The notes under the pieces: model-generated
Told to the model about the DNA's origin: nothing
Database searches by the model: none
The model's input: only the letters and a program-made list of their open reading frames with translations
Part shown: in pieces, positions 7,840 to 62,174 of the stretch
How the letters are laid out: every line of letters starts with the position of its first letter
How positions within the stretch are numbered: the first letter of the stretch is position 1
Program-made: the position numbers and the translations under genes
Source: Mya arenaria
Lineage: Eukaryota; Mollusca; Bivalvia; Myida; Myidae
Direction of reading: 5' to 3'
Assembly: GCF_026914265.1 (NCBI RefSeq)
Contig: NC_069125.1
Location: 69,394,046 to 69,458,045 of the forward strand
Length of the DNA: 64,000 nucleotides

Positions 7840-9849
7840 AACAATCCCAGGATAAAACCCTTAGATAGAAGGTAATAAGCCCAGGGTAAAACCCTAACAA
7901 ACTATTAACAAACACAAGGGGAAACCGTTAATATCATTGGAAAACACCCATGGTAAAGCCCTTACAAACTTAGTAAAATACCTTAAGAAATATGTTATAT
8001 AGATACTTTAAAGAGAGTAAAGGTTAAAACAATAATAAATATTGTAACCCAGAGTAAAATCCTAAGATAATAGGTAAAAAGCACAGAATAAACCCTTACA
8101 AAGTATGTAACAAGCGCAAGGCAAAACCGTTTATATCGATTGTAAATACCGATGGTAAAAGTCTTACGAACTATGTCAAACCCTAAGGAAATATGAAACA
8201 AAGATACGACCGAGAAACTATAAAGAAATACTCTACAGTAAAACATTTAGAAAATATTTAACACGCTCATGGTAAAACCGTTAGAAACTATGCAACAAAC
8301 TAAAGGTAAAAATATCTTAGAAACAATGTAACAATCGCATAGTAGAACCCTTAAAATCTATATAACAAGTACAGGGTAAACCCTTCAAAAACTACGCAAA
8401 ACGCCCGCGCAAACTATTAAACAACCTCAGGATAAAGCCCATAAAACATGTTACATGGCAAGGGTAATACCCTAAGACGCTATGTAACAAGCACAATGTA
8501 AAATCCTAAAGAAAATGTTACATGGCGAGGGTAACACCCTTAGACACTATGTAACAAACCCAATGTAAAATGCTTTTAACATTGTTAAATGGCAATGGTA
8601 ACAGCCTTAATAAGATGTAACAACGCTTATATAAAAGCCTAAAAACAATGGAACATGACAATGGTAACACCCTTAGACACTTTATAAGAATTTCAATATA
8701 AATGCCTTTAGCATTGTTACATGGCAATGGTAACACCCTAAGACGATATGTAACGAGCCCAATGTAAAATCCTTAAACTTTGTTACATGGCAAGGGTAAC
8801 AACCTTTGACACTGTGAAACAAGCCCACGGAAAGTCGCTTTAAACAATGTTACATGGAAAGGGTAACAACCTTATACACTATGTAGATAGTCCATTGTTA
8901 ATCCCTAATATATGTTACATGGCAATGGTAACACTCTTAGACACTAAGTGACAAGCACAACGTGAAATCCTTAAAACGATGTCACATGGCAATTGTATCA
9001 CCCTTAGACACTAAGTGACACGCACAATGTGAAATCCTTAAAGCAATGTCACATGGCAATTGTATCACCCTTAGACACTAAGTGATAAGCACAATGTGGT
9101 ATCCTTAAAGCATTGTTACATGACAATGGTAACACCCTTAGACTCTATGTATCAAGCCCAATGTAAAATCCTTTAAACATTGTCACATGACAAAAGTAAC
9201 AACCTTAGACACTATGTGACAAGCCCAATGTAAAATCCTTTAAACATTGTCACATGGCAAAAGTAACAACCTAAGACACTATGTGACAAGCCCAATGTAA
9301 AATCCTTTAAACATTGTCACATGACAAAAGTAACAACCTTAGACACTATGTATCAAGCCCAATGTAAAATCCTTTAAACATTGTCACATGGCAAAAGTAA
9401 CACCGTTAGACACTATGTATCAAGCCCAATGTAAAATCCTTTAAACATTGTCACATGGCAAAAGTAACACCCTTAGACACTATGTGACAAGCCCAATGTA
9501 AAATCCTTTAAACATTGTAACATGACAAAAGTAACAACCTTAGACACTATGTGACAAGCCCAATGTAAAATCCTTTAAACATTGTCACATGGCAAAAGTA
9601 ACACCCTTAGACACTATGTATCAAGCCCAATGTAAAATCCTTTAAACATTGTCACATGGCAAAAGTAACACCCTTAGACACTATGTATCAAGCCCAATGT
9701 AAAATCCTTTAATCATTGTCACATGGCAAAAGTAACACCCTTAGACACTATGTGACAAGCCCAATGTAAAATCCTTTAAACATTGTCACATGGCAAAAGC
9801 AACACCCTTAGACACGATGTGACAAGCCCAATGTAAAATCCGTAAACTT
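7840..9849 (+). repeat. Minisatellite array 1, left part: 34-bp monomers passing into 66-bp dimers
   Basis: From about 7840 to 8500 there are loosely conserved units of about 34 bp built as GAAACTATGTAACAAGC, a CCAGGGTAAA block and ACCCTTA. From about 8500 the repeat period becomes about 66 bp (two diverged monomers, CAAGCCCAATGTAAAATCC plus CATGGCAA.AGTAACACC). From about 9130 to 9830 the 66-bp units are almost identical to each other. Minus-strand open frames through this region are by-products of the repeat. Confidence 0.9.
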
Positions 9850-12800
9850 TATTACATGGCAAGGGTAGCAGCCTTTGACACTATGAAACAAGCCCACGGT
9901 AAATCGCTTAAAACAATGTTACATGGCAATAGTAATACCCTTGGAGACTATATAACAATCCCAATGTAAATCCCTTTAACAATGCTAAAGGCAAGGGTAG
10001 CAACTTTTGACACTATGAAACAAGTCCACGGTAAATCGCTTAAAACAATGTTACATGGCAATAGTAATACCCTTGGAGACTATATAACAATCCCAATGTA
10101 AATCCCTTTAACAATGCTAAAGGCAAGGGTAGCAACCTTTGACACTATGAAACAAGCCCACGGTAAATCGCTTAAAACAATGTTACATGGCAATAGTAAT
10201 ACCTTTGGAGACTATATAACAATCCCAATGTAAATCCCTTTAACAATGCTAAAGGCAAAGGGTAGCAACCTTTGACACTATGAAACAAGCCCACGGTAAA
10301 TCGCTTAAAACAATGTTACATGGCAATAGTAATACCTTTGGAGACTATATAACAATCCCAATGTAAATCCCTTTAACAATGCTAAAGGCAAGGGTAGCAA
10401 CCTTTGACACTATGAAACAAGTCCAGGGTAAATCGCTTAAAACAATGTTACATGGCAATAGTAATACCCTTGGAGACTATATAACAATCCCAATGTAAAT
10501 CCCTTTACCAATGCTAAAGGCAAGGGTAGCAACCTTTGACACTATGAAACAAGTCCAGGGTAAATCGCTTAAAACAATGTTACATGGCAATAGTAATAAC
10601 CTTTGGAGACTATATAACAATCCCAATGTAAATCCCTTTAACAATGCTAAAGGCAAGGGTAGCAACCTTTGACACTATGAAAAAAGTCCAGGGTAAATCG
10701 CTTAAAACAATGTTACATGGCAATAGTAATACCCTTGGAGGCTATATAACAATCCCAATGTAAATCCCTTTAACAATGCTAAAGGCAAGGGTAGCAACCT
10801 TTGACACTATGAAACAAGTCCAGGGTAAATCGCTTAAAACAATGTTACATGGCAATAGTAATAACCTTTGGAGACTATATAACAATCCCAATGTAAATCC
10901 CTTTAACAATGCTAAAGGCAAGGGTAGCAACCTTTGACACTATGAAACAAGTCCAGGGTAAATCGCTTAAAACAATGTTACATGGCAATAGTAATAACCT
11001 TTGGAGACTATATAACAATCCCAATGTAAATCCCTTTAACAATGCTAAAGGCAAGGGTAGCAACCTTTGACACTATGAAACAAGTCCAGGGTAAATCGCT
11101 TAAAACAATGTTACATGGCAATAGTAATACCCTTGGAGACTATATAACAATCCCAATGTAAATCCCTTTAACAATGCTAAAGGCAAGGGTAGCAACCTTT
11201 GACACTATGAAACAAGCCCACGGTAAATCGCTTAAAACAATGTTACATGGCAATAGTAATACCTTTGGAGACTATATAACAATCCCAATGTAAATCCCTT
11301 TAACAATGCTAAAGGCAAGGGTAGCAACCTTTGACACTATGAAACAAGCCCACGGTAAATCGCTTAAAACAATGTTACATGGCAATAGTAATAACCTTTG
11401 GAGACTATATAACAATCCCAATGTAAATCCCTTTAACAATGCTAAAGGCAAGGGTAGCAACCTTTGACACTATGAAACAAGTCCAGGGTAAATCGCTTAA
11501 AACAATGTTACATGGCAATAGTAATACCCTTGGAGACTATATAACAATCCCAATGTAAATCCCTTTAACAATGCTAAAGGCAAGGGTAGCAACCTTTGAC
11601 ACTATGAAACAAGCCCACGGTAAATCGCTTAAAACAATGTTACATGGCAATAGTAATACCTTTGGAGACTATATAACAATCCCAATGTAAATCCCTTTAA
11701 CAATGCTAAAGGCAAGGGTAGCAACCTTTGACACTATGAAACAAGCCCACGGTAAATCGCTTAAAACAATGTTACATGGCAATAGTAATACCTTTGGAGA
11801 CTATATAACAATCCCAATGTAAATCCCTTTAACAATGCTAAAGGCAAGGGTAGCAACCTTTGACACTATGAAACAAGTCCAGGGTAAATCGCTTAAAACA
11901 ATGTTACATGGCAATAGTAATACCCTTGGAGACTATATAACAATCCCAATGTAAATCCCTTTACCAATGCTAAAGGCAAGGGTAGCAACCTTTGACACTA
12001 TGAAACAAGTCCAGGGTAAATCGCTTAAAACAATGTTACATGGCAATAGTAATAACCTTTGGAGACTATATAACAATCCCAATGTAAATCCCTTTAACAA
12101 TGCTAAAGGCAAGGGTAGCAACCTTTGACACTATGAAACAAGTCCACGGTAAATCGCTTAAAACAATGTTACATGGCAATAGTAATAACCTTTGGAGACT
12201 ATATAACAATCCCAATGTAAATCCCTTTAACAATGCTAAAGGCAAGGGTAGCAACCTTTGACACTATGAAACAAGTCCAGGGTAAATCGCTTAAAACAAT
12301 GTTACATGGCAATAGTAATAACCTTTGGAGACTATATAACAATCCCAATGTAAATCCCTTTAACAATGCTAAAGGCAAGGGTAGCAACCTTTGACACTAT
12401 GAAACAAGTCCAGGGTAAATCGCTTAAAACAATGTTACATGGCAATAGTAATACCCTTGGAGACTATATAACAATCCCAATGTAAATCCCTTTAACAATG
12501 CTAAAGGCAAGGGTAGCAACCTTTGACACTATGAAACAAGCCCACGGTAAATCGCTTAAAACAATGTTACATGGCAATAGTAATAACCTTGGAGACTATA
12601 TAACAATCCCAATGTAAATCCCTTTAACAATGCTAAAGGCAAGGGTAGCAACCTTTGACACTATGAAACAAGTCCAGGGTAAATCGCTTAAAACAATGTT
12701 ACATGGCAATAGTAATAACCTTTGGAGACTATATAACAATCCCAATGTAAATCCCTTTAACAATGCTAAAGGCAAGGGTAGCAACCTTTGACACTATGAA

Positions 12801-15600
12801 ACAAGTCCAGGGTAAATCGCTTAAAACAATGTTACATGGCAATAGTAATAACCTTTGGAGACTATATAACAATCCCAATGTAAATCCCTTTAACAATGCT
12901 AAAGGCAAGGGTAGCAATCTTTGACACTATGAAACAAGTCCAGGGTAAATCGCTTAAAACAATGTTACATGGCAATAGTAATACCCTTGGAGACTATATA
13001 ACAATCCCAATGTAAATCCCTTTAACAATGCTAAAGGCAAGGGTAGCAACCTTTGACACTATGAAACAAGTCCAGGGTAAATCGCTTAAAACAATGTTAC
13101 ATGGCAATAGTAATAACCTTTGGAGACTATATAACAATCCCAATGTAAATCCCTTTAACAATGCTAAAGGCAAGGGTAGCAACCTTTGACACTATGAAAC
13201 AAGTCCAGGATAAATCGCTTAAAACAATGTTACATGGCAATAGTAATAACCTTTGGAGACTATATAACAATCCCAATGTAAATCCCTTTAACAATGCTAA
13301 AGGCAAGGGTAGCAACCTTTGACACTATGAAACAAGTCCAGGGTAAATCGCTTAAAACAATGTTACATGGCAATAGTAATACCCTTGGAGACTATATAAC
13401 AATCCCAATGTAAATCCCTTTAACAATGCTAAAGGCAAGGGTAGCAACCTTTGACACTATGAAACAAGTCCAGGGTAAATCGCTTAAAACAATGTTACAT
13501 GGCAATAGTAATACCCTTGGAGACTATATAACAATCCCAATGTAAATCCCTTTAACAATGCTAAAGGCAAGGGTAGCAACCTTTGACACTATGAAAACAA
13601 GTCCAGGGTAAATCGCTTAAAACAATGTTACATGGCAATAGTAATAACCTTTGGAGGACTATATAACAATCCCAATGTAAATCCCTTTAACAATGCTAAA
13701 GGCAAGGGTAGCAACCTTTGACACTATGAATGAAGTCCACGGGTAAATCGCTTAAAACAATGTTACATGGCAATAGTAATAACCTTTGGAGACTATATAA
13801 CAATCCCAATGTAAATCCCTTTAACAATGCTAAAGGCAAGGGTAGCAACCTTTGACACTATGAAACAAGTCCAGGGTAATCGCTTAAAACAATGTTACAT
13901 GGCAATAGTAATAACCTTTGGAGACTATATAACAATCCCAATGTAAATCCCTTTAGCATTGTTAAAGGCAAGGGTAGCAACCTTTGACACTATGAAACAA
14001 GTCCAGGGTAAATCGCTTAAAACAATGTTACATGGCAATAGTAATACCCTTGGAGACTATATAACAATCCCAATGTAAATCCCTTTAACAATGCTAAAGG
14101 CAAGGGTAGCAACCTTTGACACTATGAAACAAGCCCACGGTAAATCGCTTAAAACAATGTTACATGGCAATAGTAATAACCTTGGAGACTATATAACAAT
14201 CCCAATGTAAATCCCTTTAACAATGCTAAAGGCAAGGGTAGCAACCTTTGACACTATGAAACAAGTCCAGGGTAAATCGCTTAAAACAATGTTACATGGC
14301 AATAGTAATAACCTTTGGAGACTATATAACAATCCCAATGTAAATCCCTTTAACAATGCTAAAGGCAAGGGTAGCAACCTTTGACACTATGAAACAAGTC
14401 CAGGGTAAATCGCTTAAAACAATGTTACATGGCAATAGTAATAACCTTTGGAGGACTATATAACAATCCCAATGTAAATCCCTTTAACAATGCTAAAGGC
14501 AAGGGTAGCAACCTTTGACACTATGAAACAAGTCCAGGGTAAATCGCTTAAAACAATGTTACATGGCAATAGTAATACCCTTGGAGACTATATAACAATC
14601 CCAATGTAAATCCCTTTAACAAATTAAAGGCAAGGGTAGCAACCTTTGACACTATGAAACAAGTCCAGGGTAAATCGCTTAAAACAATGTTACATGGCAA
14701 TAGTAATAACCTTTGGAGACTATATAACAATCCCAATGTAAATCCCTTTAACAATGCTAAAGGCAAGGGTAGCAACCTTTGACACTATGAAACAAGTCCA
14801 GGATAAATCGCTTAAAACAATGTTACATGGCAATAGTAATAACCTTTGGAGACTATATAACAATCCCAATGTAAATCCCTTTAACAATGCTAAAGGCAAG
14901 GTAGCAACCTTTGACACTATGAAACAAAGTCCAGGGTAAATCGCTTAAACAATGTTACATGGCAATAGTAATACCCTTGGAGACTATATAACAATCCCAA
15001 TGTAAATCCCTTTAACAATGCTAAAGGCAAGGGTAGCAACCTTTGACACTATGAAACAAGTCCAGGGTAAATCGCTTAAAACAATGTTACATGGCAATAG
15101 TAATACCCTTGGAGACTATATAACAATCCCAATGTAAATCCCTTTAACAATGCTAAAGGCAAGGGTAGCAACCTTTGACACTATGAAACAAGTCCAGGGT
15201 AAATCGCTTAAAACAATGTTACATGGCAATAGTAATAACCTTTGGAGACTATATAACAATCCCAATGTAAATCCCTTTAACAATGCTAAAGGCAAGGGTA
15301 GCAACCTTTGACACTATGAAACAAGTCCAGGGTAAATCGCTTAAAACAATGTTACATGGCAATAGTAATACCCTTGGAGACTATATAACAATCCCAATGT
15401 AAATCCCTTTAACAATGCTAAAGGCAAGGGTAGCAACCTTTGACACTATGAAACAAGTCCACGGTAAATCGCTTAAAACAATGTTACATGGCAATAGTAA
15501 TAACCTTTGGAGACTATATAACAATCCCAATGTAAATCCCTTTAACAATGCTAAAGGCAAGGGTAGCAACCTTTGACACTATGAAACAAGTCCAGGGTAG
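9850..15600 (+). repeat. Minisatellite array 1, main part: about 43 copies of a 133-bp higher-order unit
   Basis: The period is 133 bp (locally 132-134). Each unit joins two 66-bp halves: one with AAATCGCTTAAAACAATGTT and CATGGCAATAGTAATA, the other with AACAATCCCAATGTAAATCC and GCTAAAGGCAAGGGTAGC. Single-base variants (AGTCCAGGG against AGCCCACGG, ATAACCTTTGG against ATACCCTTGG) mark unit types. Rare shared variants 1,593 bp apart show that blocks of 12 units were duplicated. Because 133 is not a multiple of 3, reading frames rotate from unit to unit, so the recurrent 62-codon minus-strand frames are not a gene. Confidence 0.95.
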
Positions 15601-15720
15601 ATTCCTTAAAACAATGTTACATGGAAAGGGTAACATCCTTAGGGACTATATAACACGCCCATATTAAACCCTTAAAAACAAGCCCACTGTAAACCCCATA
15701 AGAAACTAATAACCAATGTT
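15601..15720 (+). repeat. Minisatellite array 1, worn right edge
   Basis: Units again become short and divergent (TTACATGGAAAGGGTAACATCC, then AACAAGCCCACTGTAAACC and AAGAAACTAATAACC). Diverged edges around a uniform core are the pattern expected from unequal crossing-over. The array stops about 310 bp before the TATA box of copy B. Confidence 0.8.
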
Positions 15721-15837
15721 TTAGGGTCTGAATTAGGTAAGTGACATTGAAGGTATTGAAACAATACCAAATACTTATGATTGATTGCAATACCCAATCA
15801 TCACGTAAATGGTAATTACAAAGCACTATGTCTTTTT

Positions 15838-16088
15838 ATGAATTAATTTGCATCCCGATTTGCATCTAATTAAGAATTGTGTAAACGAGTTTGATTGGAT
15901 GACGAAAGTGAAGACTAAGGCAAAAACAGAACACAACACAATTGACTGATTGATCGAAGTCACCAATTATGGTTAACGTATTAATTAAGTATTCATAAGA
16001 TGACTTAGTGTTAAAATAAAAACGTATAAAAGGCAGAGGCTTGATGTAGCCGGCAGTCAGGGAACATTCACCGACCAGACACATCACC
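15838..16088 (+). promoter_or_regulatory. Promoter and 5'UTR of copy B
   Basis: TATAAAAG lies at 16025-16032, 57 bp before the ATG, which puts transcription start near 16055-16060. Upstream boxes recur in the paralogues: AAGATGAC at 15997-16004 (also 42450-42457 in E, and 34265-34272 on the minus strand in D); TGATCGAAGTCACCAAT at 15951-15967 (E: 42402-42418); and two ATTTGCAT octamer-like sites at 15846-15853 and 15858-15865, the second next to TAATTA. Octamers of this type are known POU-domain sites; use by a POU factor here is inference. The 5'UTR block GTAGCCGGCAGTCA is shared with E. Confidence 0.7.
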
Positions 16089-17582
16089 ATGAAGTATCTT
16101 TTACTGCTCGCCGTCGCTCTCTTCGCAGTCAGTTCAGGTAGGACTAGTTTAGATACTTTGACATGTTGCTATACTTGATGTAGTCTTATTATTTTATATA
16201 AGCCTAACGTAAAACAAAATATCTTATATAAACATATCTTATATAATACCCTGACGTTTTCGAGAACTACATCATGACTATTCTGTTATCGTCTGCTATG
16301 ACAAACGTTATTTTTAATTTATTATTGTAAAGAAAGCAATGAATTGAAGCTTTTTTCTGTTGTAGCCAGTTTACAATTGTGCCGGTTTTACAGATGATTA
16401 CGACATTAAATTAGTATTCTGTTACATTTTTGATTACTTACAAATATATCATGTAAAAAGAAAGCAAACAATGGACTCATTTTAAATATATTCGTTAAAA
16501 TAACGATTGGAATATATACTATATTATTCTTTTTATGATTTATTAAACTTGCAGTGTCTGCACGAGGCAAATGGTCACGACCATGCAAAGGTAAGTGGTG
16601 CGGAGGCTATGGAGGCGGATACGGCGGTGGTGGATACGGAGGTGGAGGATATGGAATGTCCGGTGGTTATGGCGGCGGATTTGGCGGTTATGGCGGCGGA
16701 ATGAGCGGTAAGTGTACTCATTTATTATATTAATAAAATATATCACCTCGGTTGATCTCTTGAAAGTTAAAACATATCTTATGAAGTCACTATGTATACG
16801 CTTAACTTTATAATAAGAAACAGTAAGCAAATGAAACTACATATGTGACATCTGGCTAAATCATATCAGGTGGATACATGGGAGGATACGGTGGATTTAC
16901 CGGTGGTAAGAAATTCGGCGGCTATGGCGGCTATGGAGGTGGAGGATATGGTGGCATGTCCGGTGGATATGGTGGTGGATTCGGCGGATACGGTGGCATG
17001 TCCGGCGGATTCGGCGGATACGGTGGTATGTCAGGTGGATTCGGTGGCATGTCCGGCGGTTATGGTGGCGGATATGGCGGATTCGGAGGTGGCATGGGTG
17101 GCGGTTATGGAGGTGGATACGGCGGATTCGGCGGAAGTACGTATACAGTCTCAAACACAATTTATAACGTATATATGATTCATAGTCAGGAGGAGAATGA
17201 TTTGAATGGCAAACTTTCGCCTTATAAATTAGTATTCTTTGCTTTTATAATACTAAAAACCGTTATATATTAAAGTATAAGCAATACAAAAGTATGTACT
17301 AAAATATTATTTCTTGACCGAGTGCACTTGTTGCCAAACCAATATTTCAGAAAAAAAACAGTATACTTATAGTGTTACTGACATAATTAGGCATTTTGAA
17401 ATGTTGCTATATGATTCAGAACAACGCAAAAAAAACGCGAAAACGCTTTCTCTATATTCCCAGGAGGCCGATACTGCAAATGCGCTCCACGATGCAACAA
17501 ATGGCAAAAGTTCGTCGGCCGATGCCCATGGTGCAAGAAGGGCTGCAAGCTGGTGTTCTGTTGCAACCGCGGTAAAATGTAA
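16089..17582 (+). CDS. Copy B: secreted Gly/Tyr-rich protein with 8-Cys basic tail, 195 aa
   Basis: Coding exons: 16089-16137, 16555-16707, 16870-17136 and 17464-17582. All introns are GT-AG and phase 1; a further intron (17593-17820) lies in the 3'UTR. Residues 1-19 form a signal peptide (MKYLLLLAVALFAVSS, likely cut after VSA). The mature protein starts RGKWSRPCKGKWCGG (two Cys), continues with GGYGG/GGMSGG/GGFGG repeats, carries GGKKFGG near the start of exon 3, and ends in a 38-residue tail with cysteines in the pattern C-x-C-x3-C-x9-C-x2-C-x3-C-x4-C-C. The tail has 11 Lys/Arg and no Asp/Glu. Probably an extracellular structural protein. Pearl-oyster KRMPs and shematrins are the nearest compositional analogues known to me, but KRMPs have the basic domain before the Gly/Tyr part. 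An antimicrobial or polyanion-binding role of the tail is possible. Structure is well supported; function is inference. Confidence 0.85.
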
Positions 17583-17820
17583 ACTCTATGAGGTAGGCTT
17601 TCACCATGATATTCTCGTGTTTCGCATACAATATGAATGCTTTGAATTGAGCTCGCAAATTTTTGACGCAAGTTATCGCTTCTTTTGAAATGCATGAATA
17701 TATAGATGAAATATTTGTTCACTCATGACCGATCGAATACTTTAGTGTATAGTGCTTAAAAGAAACTTGACTAATAAACACATGTGGACGGCTTTAAACA
17801 TGAATGTTTGTTCTCTTCAG

Positions 17821-17915
17821 ATACTGACACCTTACGACGGATTTCTCCTGATGAATCCATTGTTCATTGCTCATTTTGTGTATATATTTTGAATAAAGCA
17901 TCTTTAAATTACAAT
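17821..17915 (+). other. 3'UTR exon and poly(A) signal of copy B
   Basis: Acceptor TTCTCTTCAG ends at 17820. The exon begins ATACTGACACC and contains AATAAA at 17892-17897. The same exon is recognisable in copies D, E, F and G. The stop codon is only about 10 nt before the UTR intron, so nonsense-mediated decay is not expected. Confidence 0.75.
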
Positions 17916-19430: not shown

Positions 19431-19439
19431 AACTGCCAA

Positions 19440-19985
19440 ATGGTATGTGGTGCATTACTTCTTTTGCCCTCTAACAACCTTTGCATCGATACTTCACTTG
19501 ATTTTCTTAATGATAGAATAATTTTATCTCACCCTATTCTACGAAATGTTTCACACACTCACTCAATAATATATGTCATCTTTGATTCCCTCACGTGTTT
19601 GTAAAACTTCGAAAATCGTAAAAGCCCAATGAATTTTAGACTTCTTGGTTTGTCTCTGTATTTTCCATTGTATTACTGACTGCTGATGACCGCTTGGCAG
19701 CGTAGCATTTACGTGACATAACATTACACATACTATGGTAGGTTTGCTCACTCTTGAACAAACTTCGCTCTTAGCTGGACGATTTGTAGCCTTTTGTAAT
19801 GAATACTACGGACAACATTAATTTAGTTTCTATATTTTGTTCGATCAAAACTGAATGAATTAACCAACAATAAAACAGTTGTTTTTAAATAGTATGGAGC
19901 ACCAGCCTTGATCAGTTCGATGGCTGTTCCGCGCTGTTGAATTCAGTCTCCATTTGGTGTAGTTTTTATGAGGATCGTAATTCCA
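19440..19985 (+). repeat. 5'-flank duplicon, copy 2, left half (upstream of remnant C)
   Basis: Corresponds to 6330-7085 upstream of copy B. Alignment stops at about 19985, where LINE 2 begins, and resumes at about 22985. Confidence 0.55.
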
Positions 19986-22685: not shown

Positions 22686-23859
22686 GTACATTTCTATTTC
22701 GTGGCAACTAAAAAATTCTTGGGCTTTCGATATTTTTGTCGTTTCATGGATCAGCGCACTGTTTTATTTTAATTAATAATTGCGAACCAATGATAATAAT
22801 TGAAACCTACGACCAATACAAAATGTGTCGTGAAGAAATATTCCTTTCTAAATAAAGTTATACGGTATTGAATAACGAACACTTATAAGATGTGTGTGTG
22901 TGTATATATATATATTACACTCAGGTCCAACAACTCGTTTCACTACAAAAACTTAGTGTTAACATAATGGGGTAAAAAGAATCGCAGGTAAAGCAGGGCA
23001 AATAAATAAATGGACAATGAACAATAGCGAGTGCTGATGTTATGATTAAGGATGTTTGAAGCTTAAAGGTTCAGTTTGAATCACTCCTATTTCAATTTGT
23101 TTCCTTTTCTCTTTTTCAATTGAAACAATTTGTTCATAAAACCTAAATAATATGACATGAAAATAATAATTTTTACACCTTATTCGGTAATGAATGATTT
23201 GATTATCATTGGATTTATACCATAGATGTATTTTAGAAATAAAAAATATATATCACAAAACAAAATATAATCATGAAGAAATGATACAAACTTACAAATC
23301 AAATCCTTTCATGAAAAGTATTCAAAATAACATTGTTATTCTTGTTCTCATGGGTCATAACAAGTTATTGCTTATATTCAGTTTCATACTTGAAGGGAAA
23401 TCTCATTGTGTTGGGTAGCGGCTTTAACTTTAAATGGTGCAGTACACATACATATTGTTTTATTCCACTCTAAAATATGCTTCGTATTCTAAAGTGCTAG
23501 TAGTCATAGTGTTAATTTTTTATGCAGGATGACGTGTTATATTGTTATATGATTGATGTTAACCAAACGACCACCATACATTTTATTTTAGGTGTTTTAC
23601 GGTTTTGAGGTTTGTATGTTTGTAGATCAGCTAAAAACGAGCTTAAAACGAGCATAAACGATCTTTTGTTAAATTTCATTATTTGTTAAATTAACTGTTT
23701 TGAAATGACATCGAACATCACACGGTCACCTATTTAGAGTTTCAGTGCTTTAGCTTATATATGTATAAGGTCCAATGGTTTATTTCTTTTTCACATAAGG
23801 TTTGTCAAGTTATACTACACTTGACAAATCTAAATAATTTATCCTCTTTATTAAAAGAT
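22686..23859 (+). other. Intergenic: right half of the 5'-flank duplicon (about 22985-23300) and a TG/TA microsatellite
   Basis: A (TG)n(TA)n run lies at 22891-22916. From about 22985 to 23300 the sequence matches 7135-7440. The remainder to 23859 is AT-rich and unrecognised. Confidence 0.5.
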
Positions 23860-24000
23860 ACTAAGTACCAAGCCAAGGGTAAAAACTTTAAAAACGATGT
23901 AACAGGCCCAAGTTAAAATCGTTAGAAACTTTGTAACAAGACATGGTAAAACCCTTCGAAACAATGCAACAACTGCCGGTTAAAACCCTTGGAAAAGATT
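23860..24000 (+). repeat. Worn minisatellite upstream of remnant C, about four 34-bp monomers
   Basis: Units such as GATGTAACAGGCCCAAGTTAA, GAAACTTTGTAACAAG and CATGGTAAAACCCTT show the same monomer as array 1, at low copy number and with much divergence. It lies about 240 bp upstream of the surviving exon of copy C, the same relative place as in copies B, D and E. Confidence 0.65.
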
Positions 24001-24238
24001 AACAAGCGGCCAAAGTGGACGACTGAGTTTACCAAACGATTGAGATCTGTTTTATTGTGAGTTATCTTATATGACTGAATTGAAGGCACTGATGCCAAAA
24101 TGAGCTGATTCTGAGGCAATACAATTAGAAAAGGTAAAAGGTCTCAATTTGTGAGAATGCAGCTTTAAATCTACAAAAATCGATTGCTATAGATGTTATA
24201 TACATGCACTTCATTTCTGTGTTGTTTTATTTTAAAAG

Positions 24239-24625
24239 TGTCTGCGGCTGACAAACGGATACCACCATGCAAAGGTAAGCTGTGCGGTGGCTATTGAAGC
24301 GAATACGGCGGTGGCGCCGGAGGATACGGAGGTAGATCAGGCTTTGGCGGATTCGGAGGTGGTGCCGGAGGAATCGGCCTTGGAGGATACGGTGGCGGCA
24401 TGTCGAAGGTTTTGGTGGCGGAATGAGCTATAAGTGTACATTTTTTTGTAAAACATATTTCTTTCAATGATCTCTTTATAGTTACTCACTTGTGAATTTT
24501 GAAAACACTCGAAAATTCGATAAGCCTCTTATTCTGATGAAGTCACTATATATACATAAAATATGGTTGGATTATTGAAAGGATTCATTGGAAATACTGG
24601 TGGAAAGAAATGCGGCGGAAATTAA
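24239..24625 (+). pseudogene. Copy C: broken member of the Gly/Tyr-rich family
   Basis: Exon 2 is recognisable at 24239-24427: acceptor AAAAG, then VSAADKR..PPCKGKLCGGY. An in-frame TGA follows at 24295-24297, the Gly-rich part has lost frame, and the donor GGTAAG has become TATAAG. A piece of exon 3 (about 24565-24623, with TGGTGGAAAGAAATGCGGCGG) follows. No signal-peptide exon or Cys-tail exon was found. A LINE fragment begins right after it. The PPCKGK motif is closer to copy G than to copy B. Confidence 0.75.
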
Positions 24626-24639
24626 ACTCAGAAGATTTA

Positions 24640-26010: not shown

Positions 26011-26139
26011 ATGATGCCGAAGACGTTCTATAGTTCTCAATTTATTTGCGACGCCATGAGATTTTAGTCTGTTTTTAAGAATCATCTCCATTGCTATCAT
26101 TGTTACTCATATTAATTGTTTCTTATGGTTTTCTTATAA

Positions 26140-32194: not shown

Positions 32195-32273
32195 GTAATT
32201 TCAAAGTACTTTAATATATGTCAAATCACAAAATGTACAATGGGGTCATCAGAAATCCGTTAGTTGTCTGTAC
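32195..32273 (-). other. 3'UTR exon and poly(A) signal of copy D
   Basis: On the minus strand, acceptor TTCACTGCAG (ending 32274) is followed by an exon matching the 3'UTR exons of B and E. ATTAAA lies at 32215-32210. Confidence 0.7.
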
Positions 32274-32511
32274 CTGCAGTGAACAATAAATAACATTTTA
32301 GGGTGTCTTTTTACAAAAGTGTAATCACCTTATATACTATTTTTGATAAATTATTCAATTGATCATACAGTATTATCTACGTAAGAACAAAGATTTCTTT
32401 AGATATTATCTATCTCTCCATACATTTCACAAGACGGACTCTCTACAGATCACTTACATTGTATGCAAAACACGAGAATATCATAGTGAAAGCCTACCTC
32501 ATAGTAAGAGT

Positions 32512-34177
32512 TTACATTTTACCGCGATTGCAGCAGAACACCAGCTTGCAGCCTTTCTTGCACCATGGGCATCGGCCGACAAACTTCTGCCATTTGTTGC
32601 ATCGTGGAGCGCATTTGCAGTATCGGCCTCCTACGGATATAGAGGGATAAAGATATAGCGGGCCCGTTTTATATACGATGTTATGAATTAAAACCGCTGT
32701 ATAGCATATCATACTATGAACATAGCAATATTACTATATTTCTGTTTCTTTATAATTGTTTGACAATAATTGCCCTTGGTCAAAATATTATTTTTCTAGT
32801 ACAAAATGAAATCATTACTTAGTATATTCGATTTAAATACTGCAATAAAGACTTGTTGTATTCTTATAGAAGCAATCGATGCTAATTTTCAAATTGAAAG
32901 TTTGACTTTGAACTCGTTCTTTCCTGAGATCTAAAATCTAGAAGTAACGAATTGTGTTCAAGACTATACGTACTTCCACCATAACTTCCATAACCGCCAC
33001 CACCGATTCCGCCGTATCCACCACCATATCCACCACCGTATCCCCCAGCTCCACTACCATAACCGCCACCGTATCCTCCAAGACCACCACCATAACCGCC
33101 ACCGAATCCTCCAGCACCACCTCCATAGCCGCCAACGCCGCCGAATTTCTTTCCAACGGAAAATCCACCGTATCCTCCCATATATCCACCTTAAATGGTT
33201 CAATCAGATGTAACATTTGCTAGCTATTATGTTTAAAATCATTGAATGCGCACACACAGTGACCTCATCAGGACAAGTGACTTATCATATACTAGATTGT
33301 ATCCAAAATGCTACAGTGTGTAACTATCACAAGATTATCAGTAGAGCTTTATTTTTCAATTCAATAAGGTTGTAGACTTACCGTTCATTCCACCGCTGAA
33401 ACCACCAAATCCGCTACCGTAACCACCATAACCACTGGACATGCCAACACTATATCCTTCATATTTCTTTCCACCACCGTGTCCGTATCCTCCGCCTCCG
33501 TATCCTCCGCTGCCACCTCCGTATCGTCCGGCGCCACCTCCGTATCCTCCGGCACCACCTCCGTATCCGCCTCCATATCCCCCTCCGTAGCCTCCGTCGC
33601 CACCTCCATATCCACCTCCGTAGCCCCCATCACCGTAGCCGCCTCTATAGCCACCGCACCACTTACCTTTGCATGGTCGTGGCCATTTGCCGCGAGCAGA
33701 CACTGCAAGTTAAATACAATATTGAAATATAGATTATATACCTATCGATGTTTTTAGCAACTAGTTTAACAGAAATACGATATTTTCTTTCGTTTTACAA
33801 ACATGCTATGTCTGTAAATTAAGAAAAATATTTTAGCATTCCACATAAATGACGTAGCCATCAGTAGCGGTCCGAACAATTGTATACATCCCGTGCTTTA
33901 AAGCATTGTTGGGGTATCGGCTTATGTAAGATCCGATTGAAGCTGTAATTCATTGGTATTAAACAAGAACTAACAATTACGCCTGCCATGAACAGACATA
34001 ATGTAGTTCCTTGAAACACCATACATAATTATATCATGCTACCTGTAGAGTATTCAAAGTGAAACCACAATATAAGGTGTAATATACTAAGGTACAGAAA
34101 CATGTCACTGTTTTTTAATTTTTCCTACCTGAACTGACTGCGAAGACAGCAACGACGAGCAGCAAGAGATACTTCAT
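32512..34177 (-). CDS. Copy D: secreted Gly/Tyr-rich protein with 8-Cys basic tail, 234 aa
   Basis: Coding exons on the minus strand: 34177-34129, 33702-33382, 33189-32974 and 32630-32512. Introns are GT-AG and phase 1; another intron (32497-32274) is in the 3'UTR. The signal peptide is MKYLLLLVVAVFAVSS. Exon 2 (107 codons, as in copy E) starts RGKWPRPCKGKWCGGYRGG, is rich in GGYGGG and GAGGYGG, and includes GHGGGKKYEGYS. Exon 3 opens GGYMGGYGGFSVGKKFGG. The last exon encodes the same 38-residue eight-cysteine tail as B, E and G, with only synonymous nucleotide changes. It is transcribed away from copy E, about 8.4 kb apart head to head. Function by composition only: extracellular structural protein. 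Confidence 0.85.
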
Positions 34178-34345
34178 GGTGATATGTCTGGTGGATGGAT
34201 CCTCCTGAAATGCAGGCTACATGAAATCCCAACCTTTTTATACTTTTAAAAAAATAAATAACGAGTCATCTTATACACACGTTATATGTAAGATCAAAAT
34301 CGTGTAAAAGTTTCATAATAAGATGCAAATCAGTATGCGCATAAA
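34178..34345 (-). promoter_or_regulatory. Promoter and 5'UTR of copy D
   Basis: Minus-strand TATAAAAA at 34242-34235, 58 bp before the ATG. AAGATGAC box at 34272-34265. On the minus strand an ATTTGCAT octamer (ATGCAAAT on +) lies at 34330-34323. The GATCGAAG box present in B and E is not recognisable here. Confidence 0.65.
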
Positions 34346-34439
34346 TATATAAAAAGTCATAGTATGTTTAATTACCATTCAGGTGGCGACTTGTTATTCG
34401 CATCAATCATACACATGTGGTATTGATGTAGTACTTTAA

Positions 34440-34650
34440 TGCCTTTATTTAGGACAATAAGGCATTGCAACCTTGGGCTTCATACATAGTTTCCAATTCT
34501 TCTACCTTGGGCTTCATAAATAGTTTCTATGGGTTTTACCTTGGGATCCAACATTATTTTCAAGGTGTAACCCCGAGCTTGATATGCGGTTTTAATTCTG
34601 GACGTGTTACATTATTTTTTAAGTGTAACCCCGAGCTGTGTTACACCGTG
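34440..34650 (-). repeat. Worn minisatellite upstream of copy D, about six 34-bp monomers
   Basis: On the minus strand the units read GAAACTATTTATGAAGCCCA, AGGTAGAAG and so on, and GAAACTATGTATGAAGCCCA with AGGTT, clearly the array 1 monomer. The units farthest from the gene keep GGTTACAC instead. It starts about 200 bp upstream of the TATA box. Confidence 0.65.
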
Positions 34651-36527
34651 TACATGTATAAGTAGTACACACTTGTACATAATTTAACAGTAGCTTGTTT
34701 ATGCTCTTAGTTGGTATACAAAAACAAAATTACAAACCTTAGAATAACTACAGTGAATTGTAGTCAAACAGATAACAATAGAACATGTCAATCTGCATCA
34801 CACATTACCACTATGACTAATGTGACTATATAACCCGTAGCATATACTAGGATGAAATAAAGCAGTATGTAGTTGTTCTTCACCATGTAAAGCAGCAATA
34901 ACACAATAAAGTCAAGTAGAAACGTCGTATATCTTCTTTTTATTTTTGCTTCATTAGCACTGCATATATCATGTGCAATAACGAATGTGATAATGTCAAA
35001 AGTTCAGGAACAACAATGAAAACGTCAATTGGAAGTTTTTCATTAATGAAAAACATTTTTACCAACAATATCATTATACTGAACTCTACTGGATGTGGAT
35101 GGGAAAACACATATACATACTGAATTGCTGAGTTTATCTTATTATGTTGCAAAACAAAAAATTATGAAACAAATATGTCGTTAATGCATGATGGTCAAGT
35201 TTGCGATTTCCCATAATGAGAAATCCCCAGGTTCGAATCTCGCAATTGTATTGTTTTGTGACTTATTTTTTAAAAAACAAAACACGTATGATTATTATAA
35301 ACTATGTTGTTGTTTTTTTATTAAATCCTAAAAACCGTATTTCAAATTTTAAGACCAGGAACTAAGAAAATACTATGCATTATTCAAACCTTTACAGTTT
35401 CTTTATTCATTAATATGTTTGCACGCCATTTTATGTATTGGCTTTTTAGAATTAATTCTCGGTTCAACTTTTCAATTAACATAAAACGGCGCGTTGAACC
35501 ATGAACAAAAGAAACATCTAAATCCACGAGAAAATAGTAAACAGGTGAGAAATAATTGTGTGTTATAAACAAACTTTTTAATTTCAGTTCTAACAAAATA
35601 TAACATTAAGGACTGCTCCTCAAATGTGCGTAGAACGCAAAGTTAAAAAATGCTATACTATGTACATTTTGCAGTGTAAAGTACGAGTGATGAAATAAGG
35701 ATAAGCCTTTTGTGATAAACACTTATTGTTGCACAACATAAATAAAAAGGTAAAATCAATTTAGTTTAAATACAAACCTATTGCGTTAAACCCATGGGAA
35801 GGTTTGGTGTAATTTTGGAAAACAATACCTCAAAGCAAATGAAATGTTTTATCCTGTACACGTTGGTACTTTCAATGCCACATGAGTAAATCGCAAGATT
35901 AAATGAGTTCAATTTAAACTTAATTAATTAGAAACTAATACATCGCTCAGAGAATATAATAAATAAAGTCCTTGAAATCTGGTGTTGTTGTAGTTTTACA
36001 GAGAAGACGGATGGACATTTATGATAAACGTCTTATGACTGAACATCCTTATTTTTTGCCGATCATGGAGAGAATATCTCAAAAATTAAAATACTGATAG
36101 CTTGCGTTCGTACATCATTATATTACCTAATTGTGCTAGTAGCTCACATGTAATTGAAGGGGCTCATGCAAATTAAAAAAAAAACCATACTTGGTATATA
36201 ATTACTTAACTGCAATAAACATAAATAGGTTAAATACAATTCAATGACTTTATCGTCTCCATGCTAGGAGATAGTAAAGGACATATGTCAAAACAGAAGG
36301 GAAGAATCCACCAAGCAGTTAAACAATGTGACTAATATGGTAGGTAAGATATATACAAAAGAAAACAATGCATATTGACAATATTAGGGAAAACAGTATG
36401 GGCAATTATACACGTGGTAATCATTTGCAAGAAAGTAATTCACACATAAATGTGCAAAATAAAACTATTGTTAAAATATTTATGCGAAAAGCTACAGAAA
36501 CAAGCTCGGAAGCAAAAAGTAAAGTAA
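34651..36527. other. Intergenic; one tRNA-like B-box region near 35190-35255
   Basis: Around 35185-35255 (+) an A-box-like ATGGTCAAGTTTGCG is followed 25-30 nt later by GGTTCGAATCTCG, resembling a tRNA or SINE head. The stems do not fold cleanly, so no tRNA is called. The rest is AT-rich and unrecognised. Confidence 0.3.
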
Positions 36528-36770
36528 ATTAGTAAATTTACATTTTACTGACCGTTCCAAGGCGGTACCTAACAATCCTTGATAAACACACCCAGATTTG
36601 TTATATAGTATATATGTACTGTGTTGTTTTGTGCTGTTGTTCCATGTTACTGGTTTGTGATTGTTTGTTTTTGTGTTCTATGTCTTTGGCGTTTACCCTG
36701 TGACATTAAACGGGGTTTATGTTTACACTTTCGGCTACTGAACTTGTTTCTGTAGTTTTTCATATAAATG
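36528..36770 (+). repeat. Dispersed repeat family copy
   Basis: Nearly the same as 25747-26010 over its length (AGTAAATTTACATTTTACTG, CCGTTCCAAGGCGGTACC, GCGTTTACCCTGTGACATT, TTTCGGCTACTGAACTTGTT). The high identity suggests a young pair. Confidence 0.7.
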
Positions 36771-37225
36771 TTGCATAAGAAATGAATGGGCAAGACTTTG
36801 GCTAGTCACAATCAAACTACATCACTTTTTATCTCACACAACATAACATACCATACCATCATTATGGGCAACATAATGGACAACATAAACATTTTAAGAT
36901 ATGGCAATGTCCAATATCATGAGACAATTTTTGATGTTTGAAGTATTTTAGCGTTTCCATAGAAAAAAGTGATATCTCGAAATTAAACAAAGTGAACGGA
37001 AAAGTGTATATATACAGTTTATCATTCACTCTCGATTTGTGACAAGACAAAACAACAGTAATCTGCATCACGTTTCACGTTTTTCATACGTAGTTTAATT
37101 CCGATATGTGTAGTATCATAGAAATATGAAAAGTCAATACCGCAAATAAATAGTTATCGATACGTAGTTATAATCACATATAACGACGTAAAGACAACTG
37201 TGAAAGTAACCAAACACAACCAGTG
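36771..37225. other. Intergenic, nothing recognised
   Basis: AT-rich with no supported feature. Confidence 0.5.
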
Positions 37226-37230
37226 AGATT

Positions 37231-37292
<62 letters not shown>

Positions 37293-38460
37293 TTTTATTT
37301 AACGAAGGTTACATACCAAGTGTACAATCATTACAGACATACTTCTTATTTCGAGCATGGCCTTCACACAAAAAGTATTACAAAAACACATATACTCACT
37401 TACATATTAAGCAACATACAAAACATACAATCACACTATCACTTTCATACTTTTCTCATGTAATTCAACATAAGTATACATGTATTCAACATTTCTTCGA
37501 CAAACACAACTCGGTTTAATATGATGATTATAGATTACAATAATTTCATCCTGTAAATAAAGTAGATATATTCAGTAAAACCACATTCAATCAATATATT
37601 TTCAACATTTACACATTTGGTAGTATCCATTACAAGTTTTTGCAAGAATGTCATATACGTACATCAACACAATTCATGTAAACAATGAACTATTTATTAT
37701 AATGTGAATTAAATAAAGTGTCAAGATTATTTTTTTCATAAGTGATAATATTATTCTGCCAATAAGTAGCCTTTTGATGCATATTTAAAGGCTGGTAGCT
37801 TATCTTGACATTTAAGGTATGTAGGAAGAGAATTCCAAATTTTCATTGCTTTATAGGCAAATGTATTTTTGATATAGTTTGTTCTAGGTTTTACAACAAA
37901 AAGATCCTTGTTTTTTGAAGAATGCAAGCTATAGTGCTCATTTTTGGCAAATGTTAACAATTCTGTGAAGTACGAAGGAGTCAAACATTTCATGCTTTTG
38001 AAAACAAGTAATGAAATATGATAATAGCACCTGTCTTCAAAAGATAGCAACCCTGACTGTTTGAATAGTGGCTAGTTCCCGACTTCATTATTAGCTTAAT
38101 CGCTCTTATCTGAATATTAGTGATTTTTGTGGTATCTGAGGAATGTGTAAGTCCCCAGACACTTCCACAGTACTCCATGTTTGACATGATATATGCATTA
38201 TAATACAATAATTAAATCTCGTCTGTTAGATAATATGCTATTCTTCTTAGAAAGGCCAATTTTGAATTAAGCTTATTCACTACAGTTTTAACATGTGTAT
38301 ACCATGACAATGTCTGATCAACATGCACCCCAAAGGACCTTTTGACATTTCACGTTTTCTACTGACAATCATCTATTGATGTTCAAGTTGCATTGCATAT
38401 TTTGCCTTATAATTAATATATAGAATCATACATTTGGTTTTTGATGGATGGATTGACATA
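37226..38460 (-). mobile_element. LINE 4: 3' part of a LINE ending in an ATA microsatellite
   Basis: The minus strand encodes KLNSKLAFLRRIAYYL (about 38270-38220), YYNAYIMSNMEYCGSVWGL (about 38205-38150) and LLVFKSMKCLTPSYFTELL (about 38010-37955) through KIWNSLPTYLK (about 37830-37798), the usual C-terminal LINE region. An (ATA)n run at 37231-37289 marks the 3' tail. One shift lies near 38050; the catalytic part of the reverse transcriptase is missing. Inactive. Confidence 0.7.
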
Positions 38461-39170
38461 TTATTAAGGAGCTGCTACCCTGAAACATCATTTAAACAAA
38501 TATATCGAGTACATCGAATTCGATTCGACGACATCCATCATGATAATAATATTAAACACATTGATATAATATTTAAATAATTTTCCTAATATAATGATTC
38601 TTGATTATTTTAAAACATGTAAAATCTAAGCGTCCGTCCTAAAAGCAATCTGTTCTTTTGCAAGCAAAAGGAGCTCACAAAATCTGGTCAAAACTCCAAT
38701 AATAACGCAAACAATTGATGAGTTATTCATCAATATGATCTAGAGAAAGCAGCTAGAAAACTACATTTTAATCTAAGTTTAGGCTTAATAATATTATTAC
38801 CACCTTGTACTATTATAAATGATATGCTTATAATTAATCCGTTCGGGCTATAAAAGTTCTGGTCGTGTCATGTGTGAAATAAGGCTACCCATGGGCCAAG
38901 TTCCGAGAACAGCAGTGCCTTCAGTGTCTACATTTAAGTGGGGGAAAAATGGGACCATGGTGCTTATCCATGTACATTAACCGAAAAAGATGTGATGAAG
39001 TCGACATTTAAAGAGATCAATAGCTACACCCTCAACCCAAGAAACATTGTCGTTGGCTATACATGTTGTATGGGCTTGGATTCCGTAATGGCGTCGAAAG
39101 CAGTGTTGATGTTTCAGAGTGTGGCGCTTGTGATCAGTATTGCCTTATTATATGTACCTTGCTGGTTTAC
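38461..39170 (+). other. Intergenic with an open frame from 38938, origin unknown
   Basis: From about 38938 to 39170 one frame is open (MGEKWDHGAYPCTLTEKDV, then NPRNIVVGYTCC and a hydrophobic LMFQSVALVISIALLYV stretch) and GC is somewhat raised. The frame continues into the adjacent MITE to 39255, so its end is artificial. It may be an old host exon or repeat piece. No family recognised. Confidence 0.25.
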
Positions 39171-39490
39171 TTATGCACCAGTCAATTGTAACCACGGCCC
39201 CCAGGTCAGGGACATAGCGGGGACTTTGACTTTCGGTCCAGCCAAGCTCGGGTAAAATCCCCGCCCTGGGGGGACGAACTGCTCGTAAAATTCCCGCCAA
39301 AAAATGCCCCCGCACCACAGGGACACTAGGTAAGGCCCATTCCCCGCTTTTATATGTCGTGAAAACAAACACACTGCATTCAACCGGCACTGCGGGGCCA
39401 CCTGGACGGTAAAAACACAGCCCAATTCCCCGGCTATTCCCGGACCTGGGGGGGGGGGGGGCGGCGTGGTAACAATTGACTGGTGCATAA
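39171..39490. mobile_element. GC-rich MITE of about 320 bp with terminal inverted repeats
   Basis: The left end TTATGCACCAGTCAATTGT is repeated in reverse complement at 39472-39490. The similarity continues inward imperfectly for about 55 bp (ACCACG, a C-run, AGGTC, GGGA.ATAG.CGGGGA). The interior is strongly GC-rich in an otherwise AT-rich region. No transposase. Target duplication is unclear. A poly(G) tract lies at about 39449-39461. Confidence 0.75.
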
Positions 39491-40892
39491 CCAGGTCATT
39501 TAGCCGACTAGCTCCACAGGGGCCTAGGGGAATTTTGAACGAAACATTTGGACAAATCGGTAGATTAAATAAAATTTTACTACATAAATTCATCATCATT
39601 CATCATTCTAGAGATTCCATCGGCAAATAAAACATTTCCATCTATTTACCAATTAAAAATTGATACAATTGACCCAAAGCTGGCTGAACGCTGTTCGAGC
39701 ATTTTATAGTAGAGGATGTTGTGGCCTATCTGCTCTCACTCGTCATAACCACGATCTACATCCAAGCGACACAGGTGCACATTTCAGCTACCGCAGCATG
39801 CTGTTGAAAGCTACAGAAGATGAAGGCAGATATGACCTTGAAGTTGACAAATGAGAGACGAGTGACATATGATTATTATTTTAATGTTCTTTAATTAAAT
39901 TAATGATTGATTGTTGTCAATGCAATCTTCCATTAAAGTCACTGGAGGTAAATTTGAAAGTATCATTTTACACATTGTTTAATAATAAAGGTTATAACAC
40001 GTGGTTTATTGGTTTCAATATTAGATCATATGCGACTTGGAAAATCTGGTTACTTTACCTGAGCAATTTTTAAAGAATGTATGGTAGGAAAAATAAAGCG
40101 ACCATTAAAAACAACGTCATATATGTCCAAAAACATATCTACATCACATGAGTGAAGGTTTTGGAAATATTAAATTTCATGTATATCTTTTTGTTTTAAA
40201 AGCACACATTCAGGTCTGTTGTTAAAGGAGCACACTATAAGTTGATGCATTGTTTTAAATGCATTATCATGTTTAACTCATTTGACTTTAATGATAAAAA
40301 ACAACTTGATTAAGGTACCGATAAAAATATTAAACTGCTTTAACAAGCTCTGACTAATAAGCGTGTCTGTCTTATGTATTTCCATAAAAATGAACTTCTG
40401 CGGCCTTATTAGTACATAATAAATAAAAGGAATGAGTTGTAAATGAACTTTTAATTCAATTGACACTCGTATTTAAAATCAATACATGCACATGTAAAAC
40501 AAACATAATTTGTGAAAGATAAACCTTTAACTACTTACTATATAATGCATTGGTGGAAACTATAAATTACCGATAACTAGATTGTAACCGTGTATTTAAT
40601 AGTGGAAACGCACACATACTAAATGACGGGTGAGTGCTTTAAGATTGACAGTGATCAAATATTAACTCATAAGGTAGGAATATCGTGTTTTCTGCACCTT
40701 TCTCTCAAATTAAGCACGGTATCCTTCATTAGAACCATTGTTTACGATATGTGTTCATCTTTTTCAGTAAATTAAAACCAATGTTTTAAGTGTGGTATAT
40801 CAGTGCATCATTAAAACTTTTAATAAGCATTTTTTTGTTTATTTTTGTCCGAAAAATAAAGGCCCAGAAATAATACTTCGCACCTATGAAAA
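39491..40892. other. Intergenic, nothing secure
   Basis: A 64-codon frame at 39660-39854 (+) lies in somewhat GC-richer sequence but has no recognisable motif. The remainder is AT-rich. Confidence 0.4.
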
Positions 40893-42215
40893 AGCCAAGG
40901 GTATAACCCACACAATCAATGTAACCAACTAAGATCCAAACTCTTTGAAACTGTGTAGCATGCCATGGTTAAAACTCTTAGAAAGTGTGTAGCATGCCAA
41001 GGTTTAAACTCTTAGAAACTGTGTAGCATGCCAAGGTTAAAACTCTAAGAAACTGTGTAGCATGCCTAGGTTAAAACTCTTAGAAACTGTGTAGCATGCC
41101 AAGGTTAACACTCTTAGAAACTGTGTAGCATGCCTAGGTTAAAACTCTTAGAAACTGTGTAGCATACCAAGGTTAAAACTCTTAGAAACTGTGTAGCATG
41201 CCAAGGTTAAGACTCTTAGAAACTGTGTAGCATGCCATGGTTAAGACTCTTAGAAAGTGTGTAGCATGCCAAGGTTAAGACTCTTAGAAACTGTGTAGCA
41301 TGCCATGGTTAAGACTCATAGAAAGTGTGTAGCATGCCAAGGTTAAGACTCTTAGAAACTGTGTAGCATGCCAAGGTTAAGACTCTTAGAAACTGTGTAG
41401 CATGCCAAGGTTAAAACTCTTAGAAACTGTGTAGCATGCCATGGTTAAAACTCTTAGAAACTGTGTAGCATGCCTAGGTTAAAACTTTTAGAAACTGTGT
41501 GGCATGCCTAGGTTAAAACTCTTAGAAACTGTGTGGCATGCCTAGGTTAAAACTCTTAGAAACTGTGTAGCATGCCAAGGTTAAAACTCTTAGAAACTGT
41601 GTAGCATGCCTAGGTTAAAACTCTTAGAAACTGTGTAGCATGCCTAGGTTAAAACTCTTAGAAACTGTGTAGCATGCCAAGGTTAAAACTCTTAGAAAGT
41701 GTGTAGCATGCCAAGGTTAAAACTCTTAGAAAGTGTGTAGCATGCCAAGGTTAAAACTCTTAGAAAGTGTGTAGCATGCCAAGGTTAAAACTCTTAGAAA
41801 GTGTGTAGCATGCCAAGGTTAAAACTCTTAGAAAGTGTGTAGCATGCCAAGGTTAAAACTCTTAAAAATTGTGTAGCATGCCAAGGTTAAAACTCTTAAA
41901 AACTGTGTAGCATGCCAAGGTTAAAACTCTTAGAAACTGTGTAGCATGCCAAGGTTAAAACTCTTAGAAACTGTGTAGCATGCCAAGGTTAAAACTCTTA
42001 GAAACTGTGTAGCATGCCAAGGTTAAAACTCTTAGAAACTGTGTAGCATGCCATGGTTAAAACTCTTAGAAACTGTGTAGCATGCCATGGTTAAAACTCT
42101 TAGAAACTGTGTAGCATGCCAAGTTTAAAACTCTTAGAAACTGTGTAGCATGCCAAGGTTAAAACTCTTTGAAACTGTGTAGCATGCCATGGTTAAAACT
42201 CTTGAAAACTGTGTT
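40893..42215 (+). repeat. Minisatellite array 2, about 37 copies of a 34-bp unit
   Basis: Exact 34-bp period (for example AGCATGCC at 40991 and 41025). The unit is GAAACTGTGTAGCATGCC, then AAGGTTAAAACTCTTA; main variants are AAGG/TAGG/ATGG and ACTGTG/AGTGTG. Worn units resembling array 1 monomers lie at 40893-40945. The unit aligns along its whole length with the array 1 monomer, so the two share ancestry but were homogenised separately. It ends about 260 bp before the TATA box of copy E. Confidence 0.95.
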
Positions 42216-62105: not shown

Positions 62106-62174
62106 TCACTTCACCTCTAGTTTCCATTTCAGATAACAAGTTACCATTGGGCAAAACGAATGAGTAAACACCAA

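Follow-up and report, generated by a model that had tools for sequence, protein, structure and literature searches.

The data presented here suggest that a minisatellite with a 33-34 bp monomer, found upstream of five neighbouring copies (A-E) of a gene family in Mya arenaria, is private to its locus and has very probably been copied with the module that holds it, evolving freely as a passenger. One monomer is common to all five arrays, which follow gene orientation, occur at a single run of neighbouring copies, differ independently in length and, in some copies, lie between homologous flanks. From this pattern we infer slippage and exchange as the mechanism, the direction of change in each array and that no role of the arrays has been under selection.

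The host genes (A-G) encode short glycine-rich proteins with a signal-peptide-like exon 1 and a Cys-rich last exon (tblastn), and their products would be secreted proteins. The window, the whole stretch of 64,000 nucleotides that was analysed, is C4:69394046-69458045 in a genome of 1,216,080,610 bases on 18 contigs, all of which was searched; local scans covered 264 kb, the window and its flanks. Copy A lies just left of the window and hence outside the view of the preliminary description, and exon 1 and the promoter of copy G lie to the right (TATA at 64542). The last exon had 14 genome matches (A, B, D, E and G, five distal copies, three on C12 and one on C15), and with the pseudogenes C and F this makes 16 family loci. 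The last exons are located at window positions 17463, 32631, 44091 and 62594, and at about -422 in copy A. At the protein level this 39-residue exon is 100% identical across A, B, D, E and G while the promoter blocks of these copies are no more than about 72-86% alike, a contrast that points to gene conversion or strong constraint. The heuristic exon script gave no model for copy A, where exon 2 (window coordinates about -1632 to -1450) ends in GTTAGT rather than the GTAAGT of B; this could reflect a weak donor site or the beginning of loss. By description the host proteins can be compared with the shematrin-like mantle proteins of which an excerpt of PMC9210306 speaks, these too being glycine-rich tandem-repeat proteins of molluscs. 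Searches with copy B and the last exon gave no Pfam match.

Table 1. Arrays, host genes and neighbouring features (window coordinates unless a contig is named)
Feature	Coordinates	Strand	Basis and remarks
Array A	-2481 to -2408		monomer HMM; outside window
Array B	7830..15700	+	HMM span 7834-15673; TRF 8413-15655, periods 132 and 265
Array B, monomer zone	7830..8430	+	diverged, period 33-34; autocorrelation peak 34; lag profile
Array B, dimer zone	8430..9870	+	67-bp units, 0.75-0.96 identity at lag 66-68
Array B, tetramer zone	9870..15700	+	132/265-bp units, 0.85-1.00 at lag 131-134
Copy B, promoter block	15701..16088	+	aligned to A, D, E, F, G; TATA 16025
Copy B, gene	16089..17579	+	tblastn; heuristic exon model open to stop
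Array C	23857..24010	+	HMM span 23857-23990; 4 scored monomers and a decayed one by eye
MITE-like arm	24094..24170	+	C-G blastn 74% over 77 bp
Copy C, pseudogene remnant	24237..24620	+	tblastn match, in-frame stop
Copy D, gene	32515..34177	-	open heuristic model; TATA upstream at 34242
Array D	34460..34624	-	HMM span 34470-34614; 4 scored monomers, 1-2 further ones decayed
Block upstream of array D	34764..34892	-	76% identical to C 23428-23556 (blastn)
Array E	40879..42214	+	HMM span 40947-42203; 39 scored 34-bp monomers
Copy E, gene	42534..44207	+	open heuristic model; TATA upstream at 42477
Copy F, pseudogene	50835..53304	-	blastn, stops in exons; recognisable promoter block; no array
Copy G	62170..64000	-	open frame, heuristic model; no array
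Distal copies, n=5	C4:69.51-69.61 Mb		last-exon matches
23-bp arrays	C4:69525460-69525600, 69531233-69531370, 69544526-69544617		three of five distal copies
23-bp single unit	C4:69513113-69513135		fourth distal copy
Large flanking minisatellites	C4:69376535-69385220; C4:69557412-69566197		window -17510 to -8825; 163367 to 172152

The units of the arrays run head to tail at 33-34 bp, with a 34-bp period in E (TRF: 40938-42214, period 34, 37.6 copies) and in the basal part of B, and the repeat is thus a minisatellite, a class in which tandem units of roughly 10-100 bp are joined head to tail. No reading frame passes through arrays B and E, where stops are frequent in all six frames. The preliminary description reported a 34-bp minisatellite at four promoters; the monomer and its positions proved to be real (TRF, HMM), but the copies number five once A is included. 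Arrays had also been said to follow gene orientation, with D on the minus strand, and this is so in all five, A among them. The distance from array end to TATA box was 325 bp in B, 263 bp in E and 218 bp in D, where about 310, 260 and 200 bp had been given, and 274 bp in A. Array C ends about 230-250 bp before the first surviving exon of its copy, in agreement with the earlier figure of about 240 bp.

One caveat of the model scans is that both models were made from the arrays: the monomer HMM was trained on 34 seed units from these very arrays (threshold 8 bits) and the covariance model, a sequence-only one, was built from 14 array dimers. Their matches within arrays are therefore expected by construction, and the informative parts are the empty remainder and the leave-one-out runs. 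Across the 264 kb, every one of the 120 HMM matches of at least 8 bits fell inside the five arrays, and the reversed sequence gave 0. The covariance model gave 154 matches up to E 10, of which the 147 at E<=0.01 were all in the five arrays; 2 of the 7 others lay outside them (E 1.6 and 2.3, both in L028). Both scans agree with the earlier statement that the repeat occurs nowhere else in the window. HMMs trained with one array left out recovered A, B, C and E (best E 0.0041, 0.0018, 0.0018 and 0.0017) and missed D, whose best E of 5.0 was worse than the best off-array match (0.89). Local alignment to the consensus scored 73.5 for A, 163 for C and 121.5 for D, and shuffle maxima were 36.5, 37.5 and 35.5; none of 300 shuffles reached the score of any of the three. 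Array D is the weakest of the five, its assignment depending on this whole-array alignment, on a D-E blastn match of 2e-6 in a seven-sequence database and on 86% identity along 76 bp with a consensus trimer that was written with D in view.

Genome-wide, searches of the present sensitivity place the repeat in this cluster alone. A degenerate 28-mer, allowed 3 mismatches at most, had 43 matches, of which 37 fell in E, 4 in B and 2 in C, against a control of 1+1. A 26-mer drawn from the consensus common to the arrays had 3, all in array B (control 0+0), and a 31-mer for decayed units, which was selected on these arrays themselves, had 49, all in arrays (36 E, 10 B, 2 A, 1 C), with a read-backwards control of 0+0. 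A consensus 31-mer had no match anywhere, arrays included, and the 265-bp unit of array B, used as a genome query, found 25 matches, all within array B. The first pattern had 26 matches, two of them isolated ones on C9 and C12 that are attributed to chance; these two disappeared with longer patterns, and the chance expectation for 15 fixed letters, calculated by hand as about 2, equals their number. The counts from these searches are lower bounds, and the patterns jointly detect arrays A, B, C and E and not D, so a repeat decayed like D would escape them. The DNA genome search was weak near 75% identity: it reported arrays B and D and not A, C or E, and with the block upstream of D as query it returned only that block itself despite a 76% local match in C. 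Genome-wide absence accordingly rests on the patterns. With this sensitivity to D-like decay in mind, no pattern match beyond the chance pair lay outside the arrays, as would be seen for a dispersed repeat, nor was the monomer found to be abundant at unrelated loci, an outcome the preliminary description had considered. Its suggestion that the monomer might be restricted to promoters of this family holds in that the repeat is found only there, but it is not general to them.

The array is present at five of the 16 family loci, all neighbours, and absent from F, G and nine further copies. Copy G had no monomer HMM match despite a TATA box, a promoter block that by eye includes the array-adjoining spacer, and an open frame in the heuristic model. 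The preliminary description expected members with intact promoters to carry the repeat, and this copy does not. Copy F gave no HMM match in the corresponding interval. At the five distal copies on C4 the whole interval was scanned and no array found (exon 1 recognised in three of five), and the four copies on C12 and C15, of which three have a recognised exon 1, gave 0 HMM matches in 5.8-6.0 kb each. A promoter-bearing, open copy G without array argues that the repeat is not a general feature of the family promoters, and a family-wide promoter element is ruled out by the absence of the array at G, F and the distal, C12 and C15 copies.

Blocks upstream of the arrays are homologous by blastn between B and C (77% over 202 bp), C and D (76% over 129 bp) and C and G (73% over 97 bp); the C block common to G (23519-23615) overlaps the C block common to D by 38 bp. 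Blastn of upstream regions did not detect such a block for A, E or F. The promoter block downstream is homologous in all copies but C. These homologous blocks indicate that the arrays of B, C and D sit within a duplicated module. In copy G the upstream and the downstream block are both present without an array, and a MITE-like element lies between them. This element (L012:960-1400) is palindromic, has places on 14 contigs and gave at least 83 matches from the 40 scored of 6831 candidates; both strands frequently match at a single location, as is expected of a palindrome. An arm of similar kind sits near the expected place of the lost promoter and exon 1 of copy C.

Three trees bear on when the array arose; they are unrooted, no branch in them was starred, and C is in one tree only, where it is 42% filled. 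The promoter tree separates F+G from A, B, D and E (support 91/90) and the intron-1 tree also joins F+G (85/87), whereas the 3' tree sets F and G apart and is alone in making A and B sisters (83/86). The pairing of F and G in two of three trees suggests that the array probably marks an A-E clade, and on the promoter tree its presence and absence amount, by eye, to one change. Without a root, a gain in A-E and a loss in F/G fit equally. A variant that is itself compatible with a passenger, in which the ancestor of all seven copies carried the array and the F/G ancestor lost it, is possible but somewhat doubtful. It too takes one change on the promoter tree (by eye), the MITE-like element lies in just the interval of G where the array would have been, and that interval is borderline when compared with the monomer: 15 of 300 shuffles scored as high (17 of 300 for its right part), which makes it only marginally free of monomer-like sequence. 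Against the variant, the HMM found nothing in the interval of either copy, and F scored below most shuffles, 277 of 300 being at least as high.

Under the passenger reading, the minisatellite would have arisen, or been retained, a single time in the 5' flank of the ancestor that A-E share, its closeness to the promoter reflecting its birthplace, and would have been duplicated inside a module of upstream block, array, promoter and gene. Each array would then have changed alone by slippage and unequal exchange: A, C and D would have stayed short or decayed, E would have been homogenised as a 34-bp array, and the unit of B would have doubled twice. In the single assembly analysed, where the variation seen is that between paralogs, the units scored by HMM numbered 2 in A, 4 in C, 4 in D, 39 in E and 151 in B. 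By eye, A, C and D each have one or two extra decayed units, and by length array B holds about 235 (7,871 bp / 33.5). Hidden decayed monomers may or may not extend into the stretch right of array C and the sequence upstream of array A, whose monomer scores were reached by 5 and 26 of 300 shuffles. The wide range of about 4 to about 200 units in the preliminary description is thus upheld but its limits become about 2 (A) and about 235 (B). A, with about 2-3 units, is the sister of B in the 3' tree. Mean pairwise identity within arrays is 93% in E and 63-69% in A, C and D.

Array B is layered. Its monomer zone is probably the oldest, to judge from its letters: the consensus of 13 basal monomers is close to that of C, with 1 difference in 33 co-covered letters, and the consensus monomers of D, A and E diverge more. 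In the tetramer zone the multimers resemble one another far more closely than do the monomers that compose them (0.85-1.00 versus 0.39-0.48 at lag 33-35), which makes it a higher-order repeat. Homogeneity was greatest toward the gene, with a diverged gene-side edge from about 15630. This layering would be consistent with a doubling of the unit by slippage and unequal exchange.

An alternative is that the array is a cis-regulatory element, either a binding-site array or a nucleosome-positioning tract, whose unit number tunes output. The unit number of the insulin 5' VNTR is reported to tune output in this way, and insulin-type promoter VNTRs are G-rich repeats able to form quadruplexes. The present arrays resemble that insulin-linked polymorphic region in that their units run head to tail at a few hundred bp 5' of the gene start; an excerpt of PMC11336075 puts 363 bp between the insulin VNTR and the start site, and the distance to TATA here is 218-325 bp in the four copies with one. 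The array also keeps the same side and orientation in all five copies, and A, B, D and E have all kept the array, or at least part of it, in that position, a point that counts against the passenger reading as well as for regulation. However, copy G lacks an array although it has a promoter and an open model, pseudogene C has retained one, and the unit number spans about 2 to about 235. The monomers of A and B are 65% identical and their promoter blocks 76.9%, a rough comparison since the monomers are not one-to-one counterparts, and the repeat therefore shows no visible excess of conservation over its flank. Across 23 old units, monomer positions differed in how well they are conserved (chi2 76, df 33, with ends inflated by local alignment), and a binding site or the local alignment itself could be the cause. 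Unlike the insulin VNTR, the unit is AT-rich, and no G3 motif with loops of 1-7 was found on either strand of any of the five arrays, so that quadruplex formation was rejected; one G3 motif appeared on the minus strand of array B once loops up to 12 were allowed. Array E is almost without CpG (observed/expected 0.02, versus 0.33 in B, 0.89 in C and 0.83 in the window), which makes CpG methylation of E implausible. A cis-regulatory role is consequently improbable, and it is quite improbable that the arrays of A-E would form a shared module whose diverged lengths act as a copy-by-copy expression dial.

It is highly improbable that a mobile element brought the repeat as an internal minisatellite, whether by one insertion upstream of the ancestor or by repeated insertions: such elements are frequent in this region, as the MITE-like element at G and its arm near C attest, but the patterns gave no second genomic place for the monomer, the arrays occupy one homologous position next to the promoter block, and two dispersed elements of the neighbourhood reach 40 scored places each, albeit in DNA searches rather than with patterns. 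A different dispersed repeat lies at L012:6920-7360 (window about 70920-71360), with at least 42 matches from the 40 scored of 1985 candidates.

Other minisatellites occur nearby. Distal copies carry an unrelated 23-bp minisatellite (AATGTATTATCGCCTTTGGGCAG) 1.0-1.2 kb 3' of the last exon. Its arrays and its single unit have the same orientation relative to the gene, and with up to 2 mismatches all 14 genome matches to the unit fell at four distal copies (4, 5, 4 and 1; control 0+0). Being 3' of genes, these arrays show that a minisatellite can follow gene copies here away from a promoter. Unrelated 22-bp and 34-bp minisatellites, each of about 8.7-8.8 kb, flank the cluster on both sides, and an unrelated minisatellite with a 34-bp period within 264 kb indicates that the period itself is not special. 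The passenger view, one of two offered in the preliminary description, is well supported by the single neighbouring run of arrays between homologous blocks, by G, which has the blocks without the array, by lengths that differ wildly between close paralogs and by the similar behaviour of the independent 3' minisatellite.

Minisatellites that differ between paralogs are already a known kind, and it is the completeness of the natural series that is unusual here. Alpha satellite is an example of the higher-order repeat satellites that the multimers of array B resemble, but array B consists of 33-bp units in 7.9 kb within a gene cluster. The arrays also differ from the insulin VNTR in being common to five paralogs through duplication. 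Minisatellite expansion in recently duplicated human paralogs is treated in PMC2812944; as far as an excerpt of that paper goes, tandem repeat length likewise differs between duplicated copies, but those repeats are gene-internal and modify gene structure, whereas the arrays here are 5' of the promoter. Among the titles and abstract openings listed from the open-licence literature, no description of this locus or repeat was found.

If the dial reading were true, the recent paralogs A and B would be set to different output or tissue. Array B can be read as a record of unit doubling (34, 67, 132 bp), and the cluster as a whole offers a natural series of one repeat in one place, with five descendants of about 2 to about 235 units. 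The array-free sister copy G and the unrelated 3' 23-bp minisatellite serve as controls, and with this series and these controls the question of whether such a repeat regulates the genes or rides along with them becomes directly testable with RNA-seq and long reads.
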